This document shows positions 10,456 to 52,078 of a stretch of DNA of 64,000 nucleotides, in pieces. Position numbers and translations under genes: made by a program. This DNA is from Bacteroides fragilis. GTDB lineage: Bacteria > Bacteroidota > Bacteroidia > Bacteroidales > DTGW01. The DNA is taken from the NCBI GenBank assembly GCA_945889005.1, contig CAMDBI010000014.1, positions 1 through 64,000 of the forward strand. Direction: 5' to 3'. The notes beneath the pieces were generated by a model. It was not told the origin of the DNA. It saw only the letters and a list, made by a program, of their open reading frames with translations, and made no database searches. Within the stretch, counting starts at the first letter, position 1, and each line of letters begins with the position of its first letter.

Positions 10456-11733
10456 TTACTGATTGTCTTCACTCGGATTTCCCTGTAAAATAGGCTCATC
10501 TAGAATAAACTTATATAGCATATTAAATGCATTGATCGATGCTCGTGTAATATTTCGTCCACGATGATCGCCTGTATTGAACATTTTTGATTCAAGTCCT
10601 TTACTCGAAGTTACTGCAACCCAAACTGTTCCTACGGGTTTGTCGGGTGTTCCTCCATCGGGACCAGCAATACCTGAAATAGCAATAGAAAAATCGGTAT
10701 CGAATATTACTCTAATATTTTGAGCCATATCTTCGACCGTTTCGCGACTCACGGCTCCATATTTTTCGATAATATCGCGAGGTACCGAAAGTTCATTTGT
10801 TTTTATTTCGTTGGAATATGCCACTATAGATCCTTTAAAATAGGCCGAACTACCCGAACGACTGGTCAAAAGATGTGACATATAACCGCCGGTGCAACTT
10901 TCGGCAATAGATAGCGTTTTTCCCTTTTCGATCAACATTTCAGCAATAACTTGATCTATTGACTTTTCGTCCTCACTAAAAATGTAATTTTCAGCATAAG
11001 GTTTCAGGGCTTCTATTTGTTCAGCTATTTCGTCGTTGAGTTTGGCTTTGCTTTTACCTGTGGCACTTAAGCGAAGTTTAACAATTCCGGGAGAAGGCAA
11101 ATAAGCCAATTTTATGTGTGAAGGCAATTGTTTCTCCCATTCTTCAATAGCAATAGCCAACGTCGATTCAGCTATACCTGTTGTCATTATATTGCGGTGA
11201 ACGATTACAGGCAAAGTGTATTTAGCAGTAATTCGTGGCATTATGTGATATGTCATCATATTTTCCATTTCGAATGGCACACCTGGCATGGCAACAAAAA
11301 CTTTGCCATCCTTCTCGAACCACATACCGGGAGCTGTACCACACGAATTTTGGATAATAGTACAATTGTCGGCAACTATTGCTTGTTGGCGATTAAGTTC
11401 GTTCATCGAAAAGCCTCTTTGTTCAATAAGTTTTTCGATATGTTCGAAAACAGTCTGGCTAAACAAAGGTTTTGAACCAAAGAAACTATACAATGCGGGT
11501 TTTGTAATATCGTCGGAAGTTGGACCCAGTCCACCTGTTATGAACACAATGTCGGCTTTTTGTGATGCTTCAGATAATACTTCGATTATTGCTTCTAGTG
11601 TATCTCCTACCGATACTATTTGGGCAATGCTAATGCCAATTAAATTGAGTTCCTTTGCTATCCACGATGCATTGGTATTTGTAATTTGGCCAATGAGTAT
11701 TTCATCGCCAATAGAGATGATGTATGCTTTCAT
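10456..11733 (-). CDS. cinA: CinA family protein, nicotinamide-nucleotide amidohydrolase type
   Basis: A 425-residue protein with two domains. The N-terminal MoaB-like domain (SIGDEILIGQITNTNA, ITGGLGPTSDD) occurs in COG1058 proteins with ADP-ribose or related pyrophosphatase activity. The C-terminal domain (AESCTGGYMSHLLT, GIAGPDGGTPDKPVGTVW) is the PncC-type NMN deamidase that recycles nicotinamide mononucleotide to NAD. The full-length fusion is the normal CinA architecture. I start at ATG 11733 (MKAYIISIGDE), because the upstream extension does not look like the family. It lies upstream of rpmB in the same orientation, an order common in Bacteroidota. Confidence 0.92.
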   Translation of the reverse strand: MKAYIISIGDEILIGQITNTNASWIAKELNLIGISIAQIVSVGDTLEAIIEVLSEASQKADIVFITGGLGPTSDDITKPALYSFFGSKPLFSQTVFEHIEKLIEQRGFSMNELNRQQAIVADNCTIIQNSCGTAPGMWFEKDGKVFVAMPGVPFEMENMMTYHIMPRITAKYTLPVIVHRNIMTTGIAESTLAIAIEEWEKQLPSHIKLAYLPSPGIVKLRLSATGKSKAKLNDEIAEQIEALKPYAENYIFSEDEKSIDQVIAEMLIEKGKTLSIAESCTGGYMSHLLTSRSGSSAYFKGSIVAYSNEIKTNELSVPRDIIEKYGAVSRETVEDMAQNIRVIFDTDFSIAISGIAGPDGGTPDKPVGTVWVAVTSSKGLESKMFNTGDHRGRNITRASINAFNMLYKFILDEPILQGNPSEDNQ

Positions 11734-11813
11734 AATGTGTCTATTAACCAATGTACCAAAATATCAATTAAAAATGGTACATAGGTACATGGGTAAATTG
11801 TTTAATTGATTAG

Positions 11814-11886
11814 AGCGGAAAACGGGATTCGAACCCGCGACCCTCAGCTTGGGAAGCTGAAGCTCTACCAACTGAGCTACTTCCGC
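11814..11886 (-). tRNA. tRNA-Gly (anticodon CCC)
   Basis: A complete cloverleaf on the minus strand: acceptor GCGGAAG pairing with TTTCCGC, D arm GCTCAGTTGGTAGAGC, anticodon stem TCAGC/GCTGA with loop TTCCCAA (anticodon CCC), and T loop GTTCGAATC. CCA is not encoded. A MITE-like element ends 22 bases upstream of its 5' end. Confidence 0.95.
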
Positions 11887-12217
11887 GAAATAATTAGTAA
11901 TTACTAATGGGCGTCTCTAAAAACTCGATTTTTTGAGGCGGACGAATTTTTAAAACCCGGAGTTTACTACTGTAAATGTGTTACACTGAGCGACAGCTGA
12001 AGTGAGGAGTTTAAAAATAAAGTCCAACAAAGAACCCCGAAGGGCTCAGCGTAGCTAAAAAGCAGTTTTTAGAGTTGCCCTAATTACAAATGTAAAAAAT
12101 ATAGGCTACATCTTCTTCAATTCGAACAAAAATATTTTTTAAACCAAATAATAGGAATTGAGAAGATTGAAAACTACAAACACATATTCGCATTAGTCAT
12201 TAGTCATTTGTATTTAG
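11887..12217. other. Gene-free spacer with MITE-like element and repeat copies
   Basis: This spacer holds a perfect 16-base palindrome ATTAGTAATTACTAAT (11893-11908), the MITE-like element (11909-12080) and the ATTAGTCATTTGTA repeat near 12191-12220. I see no ORF of note. Confidence 0.7.
11909..12080. mobile_element. MITE-like 172-bp element with terminal inverted repeats and TAAT duplication
   Basis: Left end GGGCGTCTCTAAAAACT and right end AGTTTTTAGAGTTGCCC are inverted repeats, 15 of 17 matching. TAAT lies directly outside both ends (11905-11908 and 12081-12084), as expected for a 4-bp target-site duplication. The inside has no ORF, but it contains short GC-richer palindromic words such as GAGCGACAGCTGAAGTGAGG and CCCCGAAGGGCTCAG. 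Removing the element and one TAAT rebuilds an 18-base string found intact at 13454-13471. A mobilising transposase is not in the window. Confidence 0.75.
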
Positions 12218-12222
12218 TCATT
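12191..12222 (+). repeat. ATTAGTCATTTGTA repeat, copy 1
   Basis: Tandem ATTAGTCATTAGTCATTTGTATTTAG-like words; the 14-base core is at 12199-12212. An inverted copy of the core lies at 13464-13477 on the other side of the M48 protease gene. Confidence 0.6.
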
Positions 12223-13447
12223 TTTTTAGCGCTCTAATTCTTTGTAACAAAGTTGGATGCGAGTAATGAAAAAATACATATACTGGATGAGGTGTTATAT
12301 TGCTCAAATTGTTGACTGATAGTTTTTTCAATGCTGAAATAAGATCGTCGGCCAAACCAAACGAAGCAGCAAATGCATCGGCCTGATATTCGTTTTTACG
12401 CGAAAGAACATTCATGATCAATCCGGTAATTAACGAAATGGGACTGTATAAAATTCCAAAACTTATTAAGCCAATATGTAGCGCAGGCGCTTTGACCCCT
12501 AATGCTTCAGTAAATGCCTGTATATTGATAAATAACGACAATATGTAGAGGGTCAAACCTGTTGTAAAAACAGATATAATCATACTACTTAAAGTATGTC
12601 GTTTCTTGTAATGACCAATTTCGTGAGCCAAAACAGCAACAATTTCTTGTGGACTAAGCTGTTTTATAAGTGTATCGAATAATACGATACGCTTTTTAGA
12701 GCCTAATCCTGTAAAATAAGCATTTGCCTTGGTCGAACGTTTCGAACCATCGATCACATAAATATTTGTGAGCTTAAAACCCGATTTTTGCGAAAAGGCT
12801 TCAATGGCATCGCGCAATTCGCCATCTTCGAGAGGGGTTTGTTTGTTAAACAATGGTACTATAATATTGGAGTAAAACATGGTCATAAAAACCATGAAAA
12901 ATACGGCTATTCCCCAAAACCAAAGCCAAAAGTATGGCCCTGTTGTTTTGAAAAACCAAATAAACAATGCAAGTAAGCCTCCACCAATAATTGCGCCCAA
13001 TAACCAAGCTTTGAGCTTGTCGAAAACAAAAAGTTTGGGCGTTGTTTTATTAAATCCATATTTCTCTTCAATTACAAACGTGGCATATATATCGAAGGGA
13101 ATGCCTAAGATATCGGAGACAAAAAACAATAAACCAAAAAATATCAGAGAGATAGCAATTGTATTCTGAACCCAAGATTGAACTAATGTGTCAGCAATGG
13201 CAAATCCATTGAATAAAAGCATACCCAATACCAATACAAAACTAAATGATGCTGTAAGCATTCCAAACTTGTCGTTGGTCTTTTTATATTCTTGCTGTTT
13301 GGCATAAGTTTCTTTGTCGTATACACCTTGTAATTCGGCAGGAATATCGCTTGTCATGTATTTGGCGTTAATAAAAGACAAATATCGTTCGAGTAAAAAA
13401 TCGAAAATAACGATTGCTAGAATGATAATAAAAATTGTTTGTTCCAT
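12218..13447 (-). CDS. M48 family membrane metalloprotease, CAAX prenyl protease 1-like
   Basis: A 409-residue integral membrane zinc protease of the Ste24/M48A type. The zinc motif HEIGH lies in VAVLAHEIGHYKKRH near residue 275. A third ligand glutamate is in NEYQADAFA. The conserved segment NAYFTGLGSKKRIVLFDTLI precedes the active site. About seven hydrophobic segments surround the active site (residues 3-20, 60-85, 95-120, 150-170, 175-200, 295-310 and 335-355). In bacteria these enzymes are thought to act in membrane-protein quality control, since there is no prenylated substrate. The gene lies between fabG and tRNA-Gly and is flanked by inverted copies of an AT-rich repeat. Confidence 0.9.
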   Translation of the reverse strand: MEQTIFIIILAIVIFDFLLERYLSFINAKYMTSDIPAELQGVYDKETYAKQQEYKKTNDKFGMLTASFSFVLVLGMLLFNGFAIADTLVQSWVQNTIAISLIFFGLLFFVSDILGIPFDIYATFVIEEKYGFNKTTPKLFVFDKLKAWLLGAIIGGGLLALFIWFFKTTGPYFWLWFWGIAVFFMVFMTMFYSNIIVPLFNKQTPLEDGELRDAIEAFSQKSGFKLTNIYVIDGSKRSTKANAYFTGLGSKKRIVLFDTLIKQLSPQEIVAVLAHEIGHYKKRHTLSSMIISVFTTGLTLYILSLFINIQAFTEALGVKAPALHIGLISFGILYSPISLITGLIMNVLSRKNEYQADAFAASFGLADDLISALKKLSVNNLSNITPHPVYVFFHYSHPTLLQRIRALKK

Positions 13448-13452
13448 GGTAT

Positions 13453-13487
13453 TAATTACTAATTACAAATGACTAATTACTAATGAA
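13453..13487 (-). repeat. ATTAGTCATTTGTA repeat, copy 2 (inverted)
   Basis: The segment contains TACAAATGACTAAT at 13464-13477, the reverse complement of the core at 12199-12212. It also contains AATTACTAATTACAAATG (13454-13471), identical to the reconstructed empty site of the MITE-like element. Confidence 0.65.
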
Positions 13488-48709: not shown

Positions 48710-48740
48710 AAAAGGCCTGTGTTTTCACACAAGCCTTTTT
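48709..48740. terminator. Bidirectional terminator between DUF4249 and lipoprotein A
   Basis: AAAAAGGC (48709-48716) pairs with GCCTTTTT (48733-48740), with inner TGTG/CACA pairs. It lies between convergent genes. A close copy is at 50419-50448 after lipoprotein B, as part of the duplicated unit. Confidence 0.8.
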
Positions 48741-48760
48741 ATTATTTCTTTAATTTATGA

Positions 48761-50185
48761 CTATTCAATTTTATTTTGCATTTTAGTAGCCATTTTTTCA
48801 AACTCATCTGCTACATTATCAAATCCTTTTTCAAAATAAGTTTCGATATCTTCATAAGTTCCATCACCAAATTTAAGCTTTATATTCATGTCACTATGGT
48901 ATTCTGCAGCATCATTTACTACATAGAACTCTCCATCGCAAATCTTTTTCTGTTTAGCTGTATTGATCAATGCTATTTCAATATTTGTGTTTACTACACC
49001 AATCATTTCTTCATTCATTTTCTTGTCAATATCGTAATACTCCATATTTTCAGCCTTTTGGATTTCCATGTATTCCTTTTGATAATTAGTCCAATCAACA
49101 TTATAACCGCCGTATTTTTTATAAAAATCTTTCCATTTGGTTTCGTATTTTGAAGATAAAGCATCATATTGGCTTTCATATTTATCATCGATAGCACGAC
49201 CGGCTGGCATCATCGTTTTAACATCAATATTACCAATTAATTTTACATCCATAATGGCAATATATGCTCCCGCTTTGGTTACCACTTTGTCTAGTTCAGA
49301 TTCATCTTCCATCGATGACATAGCATCTTCGGTAAAAGTACCCTCTGCCAATTCGCCAAATGAAATGATGTTTTTAGTGGCATTTTTAAAAATAACATCG
49401 GTAGAGATTTTCGTGTTTGTATTATCAAACTCGCCTGAAAGTGAATAGACTCCGATAGTTAATGACGCATTTACTTTTGTTGGAGTACCATCTGCTTTAT
49501 AAGTTGCCGTAAAAACAAACTTCATTTCTTCTTTGCTATTAACGGTTAATAGAATTTCGGCCGATTTAGGTAAATCATAAAACTCTTCTGAAATTTTACC
49601 TTTTTCGGTTATTGTAAAGGTTGTAATATTTGATATTTTCAATTTCCCGGTGTTCGTGGTTGCTGTTTCTGAAGCAGGGAAATTGATTATTATTGCATCT
49701 TCTCTATTTTCAGTTTCTTCAAGTTCTTTTGTTGAGAAGTTGTATGTATAAGTCATACCTTTAATTTCATTCCATTGATTAATAATAGTGTCTGGCGTCG
49801 AAACTTCTTCTTCAGACGAAACTTCTTTTTCAATAGATTTCAATAGTGCGTAAGCATTGTTTTTGTCGTCTGACAAACTTGCAACACTAGAAATTATTGA
49901 CATATATGGAGTTGCAGATTTCAAATTACTATCCATACGTTTGATCATACTGGCAGCCGCGTTAATTGCAGTCTGGTCGGTGAGTGTACTAAGTTCTTGA
50001 GCAACACTAACACCGGTACTAGATAATACTTCTTTTTGTTGCTCTGGAGTAAGATTGTCGGCAGCTACATTGGTCGAAAGCTCTTCGCTAAGGGCCAAAC
50101 CTAAATCTTCAGTTTCCTTTTCTTCGCATGACCACAACATCATTACGCATGCAATACTGATAGCTAAAAATTTTAAATTTCTCAT
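48761..50185 (-). CDS. Predicted lipoprotein A (paralogue of the gene at 50469)
   Basis: A 474-residue protein with a signal peptide and lipobox cysteine (MMLWSCEEKE). The first 150 residues are helical with low-complexity acidic stretches (EEVSSEEEVSTPD). The middle is beta-rich (SAEILLTVNSKEEM, TFTITEKGKI). The C-terminal 120 residues are helical and charged, ending KMQNKIE. I do not recognise the family. It is paralogous over its whole length to the next gene. It lacks the 24-bp repeat array of copy B. It is probably attached to the outer membrane. Confidence 0.85.
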   Translation of the reverse strand: MRNLKFLAISIACVMMLWSCEEKETEDLGLALSEELSTNVAADNLTPEQQKEVLSSTGVSVAQELSTLTDQTAINAAASMIKRMDSNLKSATPYMSIISSVASLSDDKNNAYALLKSIEKEVSSEEEVSTPDTIINQWNEIKGMTYTYNFSTKELEETENREDAIIINFPASETATTNTGKLKISNITTFTITEKGKISEEFYDLPKSAEILLTVNSKEEMKFVFTATYKADGTPTKVNASLTIGVYSLSGEFDNTNTKISTDVIFKNATKNIISFGELAEGTFTEDAMSSMEDESELDKVVTKAGAYIAIMDVKLIGNIDVKTMMPAGRAIDDKYESQYDALSSKYETKWKDFYKKYGGYNVDWTNYQKEYMEIQKAENMEYYDIDKKMNEEMIGVVNTNIEIALINTAKQKKICDGEFYVVNDAAEYHSDMNIKLKFGDGTYEDIETYFEKGFDNVADEFEKMATKMQNKIE

Positions 50186-50418
50186 TTTTTAATAAATTTA
50201 AGTGAATAATAATTTCAATTTTAAAATTATGAATAAAAATTGAAACAAACACCATGCCAAAAAATATTTTAAAATTTTTGGCAAAAAATCTAGAGAAAAA
50301 TACGACTACTCTTGCGCCTCCAAAAACAATACGGCTAAACAAAAGCTTTAATTTTTTTTAGTGTTTTATTAAATTCTACTATGACAAATTATGAAACCAA
50401 TGTAAATAATGTCAAATA

Positions 50419-50448
50419 AAAAAGGCCTGTGAAATCACAAGCCTTTTT
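50419..50448 (-). terminator. Terminator after lipoprotein B
   Basis: AAAAAGGC (50419-50426) pairs with GCCTTTTT (50441-50448), inner TGTG/CACA. It is a duplicate of the terminator at 48709-48740. Confidence 0.75.
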
Positions 50449-50468
50449 ATTATTTCTGTAATTAATGA

Positions 50469-51944
50469 CTATTCAATTTTATTTTGCATTTTAGTAAGCA
50501 TTTTTTCAAACTCATCTGCTACATTATCAAATCCTTTTTCAAAATAAGTCTCGATGTCTTCATAAGTTCCATCTCCAAATTTAAGTTTAATATTCATGTC
50601 ACTTTCGTAATTAAATTCATCATTTACTAAATAGAAGACCCCTTCGCATATTTTTTTCATTTTAGCTGTATTGATCAAAGAAATTTCTATGTATTTGCCT
50701 ACAACACCAATCATTTCTTCATTCATTTTCTTATCAATGTAGAAACGCTCCATATTCTCAGCCTTCTGGATATCATTGTATTCCTTTTGATAATTAGACC
50801 AATCTACATTATAACCTCCATATTTTTTATTAAAATCTATCCATTTGGTTTCGTATTTTGAATCTAAAGCATTATATTGACTTTCATATTTATCATTGAT
50901 AGCACGACCTTCTGGCATCATGTTTTTAACGTCAACTTTACCAATTAATTTTATATCAAAAATAGCAATATATGCACTTGCTTTAGTAACAACTTTATCA
51001 AATTCGTCGTCATTTTCCATCGACGAAATTGCATCTTCGGTAAAATTACCTTCGGCCAATTCGCCAAATGAAATTATGTTTTTAGAAGCATTTTTAAATA
51101 TTACATCGGTAGAGAATTTAGAGTTTGTATTTTCCAATGCACCTGAAAGTGTAAATGTACCAATTGTTAATGTTGCATTTACTTTGGTAGGTATACCATC
51201 TGCTTTATAGGTAGCCGAAAAAACAAATTTCATTTCTTCTTTGCTATTAACGGTTAATAGCATTTGGGCAGATGCCGGTAAATCGTAAATCTCTTCAGAA
51301 ATTATAGATTTTTCGGTTAATTTAAATGTTGAAATATTAGATATTTTCAATTTTCCGGTGTTTGAAGTTGCTGTTTCTGATGCAGGGAAATTGATAATTA
51401 CAGAATTCTCTGTATTATCAGTTTGGTCAAATTCCTTAGTTATAAAATTATATGTTAAAGTCGTACCTTTTATTTCATTCCATTGTGAAATTATTGTGTC
51501 TGGCGAAGAAACTTCTTCTTCAATCGATTTTAATAACGAGTAAGCATTATTATTGTCGTTAGATAAACTTGCTACATTAGAAATGATTGACATAAAAGGA
51601 GTTGCCGATTTCTGAGAACCACTCATACGTTTGACCATACTAGCAGCCGCGTTTATTGCTGTCTGGTCGGTGAGTGTACTTAGTTCTTGTGCAATACTTA
51701 CACCTGTTGTCGACAATACTTCTTTTTGTTGTTCAGGGGAAAGATTATCGAGAGCAAAATTAGTAGAATCATCAGCAACAATATTTGTAGAATCATCAGT
51801 AACTATATTAGTAGAATCATCAATAACTAGATTTGTCGAATCAGAATCTTTAAGATCTAAAATATCTTCCTTTTCCTTTTCTTCGCATGACCACAACATC
51901 ATTACACATGCGATACTAATAGCTAAAAATTTTAAATTTCTCAT
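50469..51944 (-). CDS. Predicted lipoprotein B with N-terminal tandem repeats
   Basis: A 491-residue lipoprotein, paralogue of the gene at 48761. The first 24 residues are identical through the lipobox LWSCEEKE. After the cysteine it has four copies of DDSTNxVx-type 8-residue repeats (DSTNLVID, DSTNIVTD, DSTNIVAD, DSTNFALD), coded by 24-bp repeats. These form a flexible, acidic stalk. The rest is similar to copy A in order and length, and ends KMQNKIE. No known domain is recognised. The upstream gene is tRNA-Lys on the other strand; its promoter lies 127 bases upstream of this start. Confidence 0.87.
   Translation of the reverse strand: MRNLKFLAISIACVMMLWSCEEKEKEDILDLKDSDSTNLVIDDSTNIVTDDSTNIVADDSTNFALDNLSPEQQKEVLSTTGVSIAQELSTLTDQTAINAAASMVKRMSGSQKSATPFMSIISNVASLSNDNNNAYSLLKSIEEEVSSPDTIISQWNEIKGTTLTYNFITKEFDQTDNTENSVIINFPASETATSNTGKLKISNISTFKLTEKSIISEEIYDLPASAQMLLTVNSKEEMKFVFSATYKADGIPTKVNATLTIGTFTLSGALENTNSKFSTDVIFKNASKNIISFGELAEGNFTEDAISSMENDDEFDKVVTKASAYIAIFDIKLIGKVDVKNMMPEGRAINDKYESQYNALDSKYETKWIDFNKKYGGYNVDWSNYQKEYNDIQKAENMERFYIDKKMNEEMIGVVGKYIEISLINTAKMKKICEGVFYLVNDEFNYESDMNIKLKFGDGTYEDIETYFEKGFDNVADEFEKMLTKMQNKIE
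51760..51849 (-). repeat. 24-bp tandem repeats in lipoprotein B
   Basis: Units at 51760-51783, 51784-51807, 51808-51831 and a partial one at 51832-51849. They share GTAGAATCATCA on the plus strand. In-frame gain or loss of units would change the length of the stalk behind the lipobox. Copy A has none. Confidence 0.85.
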
Positions 51945-52047
51945 TTTTTAATATATTTAAGTGAATAATAATTTCAATTTTAAAATTAAAAATGAAAAAT
52001 GAAACAAACTCCATGCCAAAAAATATTTTAAAATTTCTTAGAAAAAA

Positions 52048-52078
52048 TTTGGTGAGAAAAAAAAACCGACTACCTTTG
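52048..52078 (+). promoter_or_regulatory. tRNA-Lys promoter
   Basis: TTTG (52048-52051), 19 bases, then TACCTTTG (52071-52078). This is an exact match to the Bacteroidota pattern TTTG-N19-TAnnTTTG. Transcription should start near 52085, leaving about 84 bases of leader before the tRNA. Confidence 0.7.

Follow-up and report, generated by a model that had tools for sequence, protein, structure and literature searches.

The closest described counterparts of the element reported here are the IS5-related MITEs of Porphyromonas gingivalis, namely BrickBuilt, MITE239, MITE464/PgRS, and MITE700, which likewise belong to the Bacteroidota, carry terminal inverted repeats (TIRs) matching IS5-family elements around an interior that does not, and, in the case of BrickBuilt_4, offer a filled and an empty site with a 4-bp duplication (PMC4596501). 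A further counterpart is MITECca01 of Cardinium, similarly a lineage-specific MITE of the Bacteroidota (~240 bp), whose ends, together with a few subterminal bases, link it to its parent IS (PMC9769881). Our element differs from the P. gingivalis MITEs in its TIR, which reads GAGACC.. or ACGTCA.. in the latter, in the minisatellites that BrickBuilt and MITE464 contain, and in the full-length IS elements with matching TIRs that reside in the same P. gingivalis genomes (PMC4596501). From MITECca01 it is set apart by the parent, which in Cardinium belongs to the IS982 family and is still present as intact copies (PMC9769881).

In the window—the whole 64-kb stretch of DNA that we analyzed—a preliminary description had placed a 172-bp element with partly matching inverted ends and TAAT on both sides, 22 bases from a tRNA-Gly gene. 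All of these features were recovered (Table 1): 15 of 17 positions match between the left end GGGCGTCTCTAAAAACT and the right end AGTTTTTAGAGTTGCCC, which form imperfect TIRs, and no ORF of at least 60 aa was found to overlap the element. When the element and one TAAT are removed, the rejoined empty site contains AATTACTAATTACAAATG, the exact counterpart of positions 13454-13471 that had been claimed for it, and the identity even extends to 19 bp (13453-13471). This match is not attributable to chance, because the other exact 18-mers shared within the window are palindromes, paralogous coding segments, or parts of a large duplication (48.7-52 kb). The match stems from a heptamer repeat that is dispersed in the genome. 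The large duplication itself (48728-52059) is arranged in tandem with a period of ~1.7 kb, its copies being 81-90% identical. We also sought an orthologous empty site beside cinA in 19 relatives, and a tRNA was present there in 0/19.

Table 1. Coordinates of the MITE, its insertion site, and the neighboring tRNA-Gly features within the window
Feature	Position	Strand	Remarks
MITE	11909..12080	.	172 bp, non-coding, ~40 relatives in genome
Left TIR GGGCGTCTCTAAAAACT	11909..11925	+	family consensus GGGCATCTCTAAAAACT also ends IS5-family elements
Right TIR, GGGCAACTCTAAAAACT on minus strand	12064..12080	-	right end of element, AGTTTTTAGAGTTGCCC
Target-site duplication TAAT, left copy	11905..11908	.	
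Target-site duplication TAAT, right copy	12081..12084	.	
Interrupted heptamer array, left part TAATTAGTAATTACTAAT	11891..11908	.	
Interrupted heptamer array, right part TAATTACAAATG	12081..12092	.	
Intact heptamer array, 19-bp match to rebuilt empty site	13453..13485	.	
tRNA-Gly (anticodon CCC)	11813..11886	-	22 nt from element
Promoter-like -7 box TACATTTG	12087..12094	-	24 nt from tRNA in empty site, 200 nt now
Terminator-like hairpin GAGCCC-UUCG-GGGUUC, tail UUUGUU	12032..12047	-	inside element, read toward tRNA

The arrays at the insertion site are built from the AT-rich heptamers TAATTAC/TAATGAC/AAATTAC, with AATTACTAATTAC as a part of them. In the genome that carries the window, the latter motif has ~37 sites; the reversed pattern has 0 there, and none of 60 relatives contains more than 10 copies of the motif. 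The earlier view that the target was itself a copy of a repeat is supported. A preference of the MITE for such arrays is not clear, since only 2/36 of its sites lie inside them, too few to claim one (AT-matched controls, 1.6%, or ~0.6 expected). A different heptamer, TAACTGA, is known to form direct repeats in Beggiatoaceae, in Cyanobacteria, and in a few members of the Bacteroidetes (PMC4679880). In our material, the arrays are dispersed, those of the window lying at 13453-13485, at 12191-12225, and at 11891-11908 together with 12081-12092, with further ones at L157-L186. Several of them appear to start at the end of a gene, and two lie on either side of the M48 gene, where they form an inverted pair of 32 nt (91%). 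Heptamer-like repeats also lie directly upstream of two further tRNAs (L225, 60 nt, tRNA-Arg CCT; L220, tRNA-Val GAC), at one of which the repeat apparently supplies the TTTG of the -33 box.

The genome itself spans 3.26 Mb in 62 contigs and is 99.4% complete. Searching it with the 172-bp unit, as had been suggested earlier, returned 44 blastn matches in ~40 places, many at 93-97% identity; the closest match to the window unit stands at 97%, and no copy in this search is identical to it. The full form measures ~171-172 bp, and in shorter copies (78-159 bp) pieces of the interior are missing but both ends persist. Among 36 two-ended copies (34 belonging to the window family and 2 to a second one that shares its ends), an exact 4-bp flanking duplication was found in 23 and was missing from 13, whereas random re-pairing of flanks between copies gave a mean of 3.0 and a maximum of 11 such matches in 1000 trials; duplications of 2, 3, 5, and 6 bp accounted for 2, 1, 1, and 0 cases, respectively. 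The earlier reading of the site as a true insertion with a 4-bp duplication is thereby upheld. The duplicated sequences are nearly all A/T, chiefly of the ATTA and TAAA types. Copies diverge from their consensus by 1.2-15.1%, several by only 1-2%, and none of the 30 checked lies within an ORF, with 2 overlapping an ORF edge. The hairpin fold of the element beats all shuffles (z -3.6 and -4.7), Rfam holds no family for it, and an exact internal 26-mer is absent from 84,980 species genomes, a set from which records of the element's own genome were possibly excluded.

With a length below ~600 bp, no transposase gene, TIRs, a target-site duplication of fixed length (4 bp), and many dispersed copies, the window element is a genuine MITE. 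MITEs usually, though not of necessity, have an autonomous partner with matching ends in their own genome. None was recovered here, which bears on present mobility and not on the identity of the element. A second type of MITE in this genome, 130 bp long and with the same ends, occurs at L080 (G000:C2:52972) and L071 (G000:C40:2429), and its interior reads TTCGACTACGCTCA...TGAGCGTAGTCGAA. It resembles, by eye, an element in G331, and another family of the order contains a similar element (L105).

Beyond this genome, in other Bacteroidia and in Ignavibacteria, the consensus TIR GGGCATCTCTAAAAACT also terminates 1.3-kb IS5-family elements whose transposase is of the NCBIfam IS5_4 type. Exact copies of GGGCNTCTCTAAAAACT occur in 13/393 genomes of the order; the reversed control gave almost no hits. 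In an uncultured Bacteroidetes bacterium (G016, CAINEZ010000250.1), the ends bound a 1,327-bp element (L101) whose one gene encodes an IS5-family transposase; the protein contains PF01609 and DUF772 and scores 284.9 bits against NF033581 (cut-off 140). The consensus TIR is matched at 17/17 positions by the right end of L101 and 14/17 by its left end, and at 17/17 by the left end of L126 and 16/17 by its other end. L118 and L128 are further IS5-family elements bearing the TIR, and relatives with identical or near-identical ends, L126 and L128 among them, are found in Ignavibacteria and other Bacteroidales. The full transposon with shared ends that the preliminary description had proposed to look for therefore exists in other genomes, but was not found in the element's own. 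An ATAA/ATAA duplication flanks L128, but none that matches was seen at L118, L126, or L136. Similarity between the MITE and these IS elements stops after ~24 bp, and the interiors have nothing recognizable in common, so that the MITE interior is not recognizable as a remnant left by internal deletion of an IS. For the same reason, we class the element as a MITE with IS5-type ends rather than as a deleted IS5 copy. Judging by these ends and by the length of the duplication, an IS5-type transposase is likely to have moved it. A separate 800-bp element at L107 (718-1517; G178:C12) shares these ends, is flanked by a TTAA duplication, contains no open frame of at least 120 codons, and is possibly a decayed IS-to-MITE intermediate.

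Other genomes also contain elements of 89-251 bp that have the same ends and differ in their interiors. Exact 4-bp duplications accompany 10/16 paired elements outside the MITE's own genome, MITEs and IS elements being counted together. The left 60-70 bp of the window family are ~80% alike in elements of G351 and G169 and in a stretch of G014, and some internal motifs occur without the ends in other genomes, including an exact 27-mer in G021. Because short elements with such ends vary in their interiors, the comparison suggests that the ends are what the transposase needs, and it further suggests that fillers are exchanged between fixed ends.

Within its own genome, we saw no pair of these ends enclosing a gene, and searches for an IS5-type transposase with the protein of a relative and with the NCBIfam IS5_4 profile returned no match above noise. 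Only two DDE_Tnp_1 transposases were found there, of the IS4 and IS1634 types. One candidate parent, a transposase ORF on C23 lying ~1.1 kb from a solo MITE end (C23:53520-53536), was rejected as an IS4-family gene. Because no fitting transposase was found in a nearly complete assembly, the family looks orphaned, and the MITE is probably no longer mobile here. The MITE might instead still be moving with the help of an IS5-family element that the draft assembly does not contain, as multi-copy IS elements are often lost from assemblies of this kind (here 62 contigs) and several copies lie close to the consensus; the high completeness, the failure of IS5_4 to match above noise, and the want of any identical copy of the window unit make this unlikely. 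Still less can be said for a REP-/RAYT-type palindrome or some other structured repeat that merely resembles a transposable element. The element folds well, and its internal motifs (CACTGAGCG...CGAAGTG; CCCCGAAGGGCTCAGCG) occur outside it in other genomes, but fixed TIRs, 4-bp duplications, and IS5-matched ends, together with shorter copies that lack internal parts and yet retain both ends and their duplications, render such a reading extremely improbable.

The remaining alternative concerns the tRNA: the element might supply a new tRNA-Gly promoter from its end or interior, given that its end lies at what is a normal promoter distance in this genome. Many tRNAs of the genome are preceded, at 3 to ~110 nt, by TTTG-N17-21-TANNTTTG, which we take to be the Bacteroidetes promoter type. 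Neither the near part of the element nor the spacer to the tRNA contains a TTTG-N18-TANNTTTG-like site, no sigma-70-like site was found in 11700-12400, and when a matrix derived from 12 tRNA promoters in the genome is applied, the element side scores worse than ~95% of random 90-nt stretches. We therefore reject a promoter inside the element and regard the alternative as very unlikely. The earlier proposal that the element may supply or disturb the tRNA promoter accordingly loses its first half, and its second stays plausible, as the insertion moves the tRNA 176 bp farther from a weak promoter-like TACATTTG box and places a hairpin in between. We do not claim this box as a proven native promoter, since no -33 partner is recognizable and the box is not among the best-scoring positions upstream in the rebuilt empty site, where the best matrix score resembles that of ordinary DNA. 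Counting both strands, the window contains TACATTTG 7 times. As for the hairpin, 1 terminator-like hairpin was found where 0.4 would be expected; it is dispensable for the element, as some shorter copies have lost it. A reduced supply of tRNA-Gly(CCC) could be tolerated, because the genome additionally encodes a tRNA-Gly(UCC), which established wobble rules allow to read GGG.

Taken as a whole, the locus is very probably best explained as a copy of an orphaned MITE with IS5-type ends, whose insertion beside a tRNA has a modest likely effect. An IS5-family transposase would have recognized the ends of ~17-24 bp, and the unit would have been cut and pasted, or copied, into AT-rich intergenic sites; the source of the transposase would later have been lost or may sit in an unassembled repeat. 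The heptamer array that the window copy entered lies between the gene for the M48 peptidase and tRNA-Gly(CCC). The likeliest consequence is that the tRNA came to lie 176 bp farther from any promoter upstream. A transcript started upstream would then carry a long hairpin leader, to be removed by RNase P, or would terminate in part at the UUCG hairpin. A bolder and unlikely extension is that a single IS5-type end of 17-24 bp circulates in Bacteroidia and suffices to mobilize almost any short filler, that unrelated short sequences have thus been captured repeatedly between such ends, and that the copy described here now acts as a removable structured leader or attenuator before tRNA-Gly(CCC).

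These findings add an unannotated MITE family of an uncultured member of the Bacteroidota that is tied to a definite transposase family, and show MITEs persisting without a detectable parent. Shared ends and varied interiors across the order would provide a handle on the minimal sequence that an IS5-type transposase needs, and the insertion beside the tRNA offers a clean natural setting in which to ask whether placing a hairpin element before a tRNA makes a difference. Compared with the IS5_4 insertion sequences, such as the one in CAINEZ010000250.1, the MITE has the same 17-bp TIR, and one relative (L128) shows a duplication of 4 bp, but the IS elements measure 1.3 kb and encode a transposase, which the MITE does not. 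Unlike the Correia elements of Neisseria, subtypes of which carry promoters, the window element has no recognizable one; like them, it is short and intergenic and can separate a promoter from its gene (PMC10969869). Insertion between a tRNA and its upstream DNA is, in itself, an ordinary kind of event, with a few unusual details.
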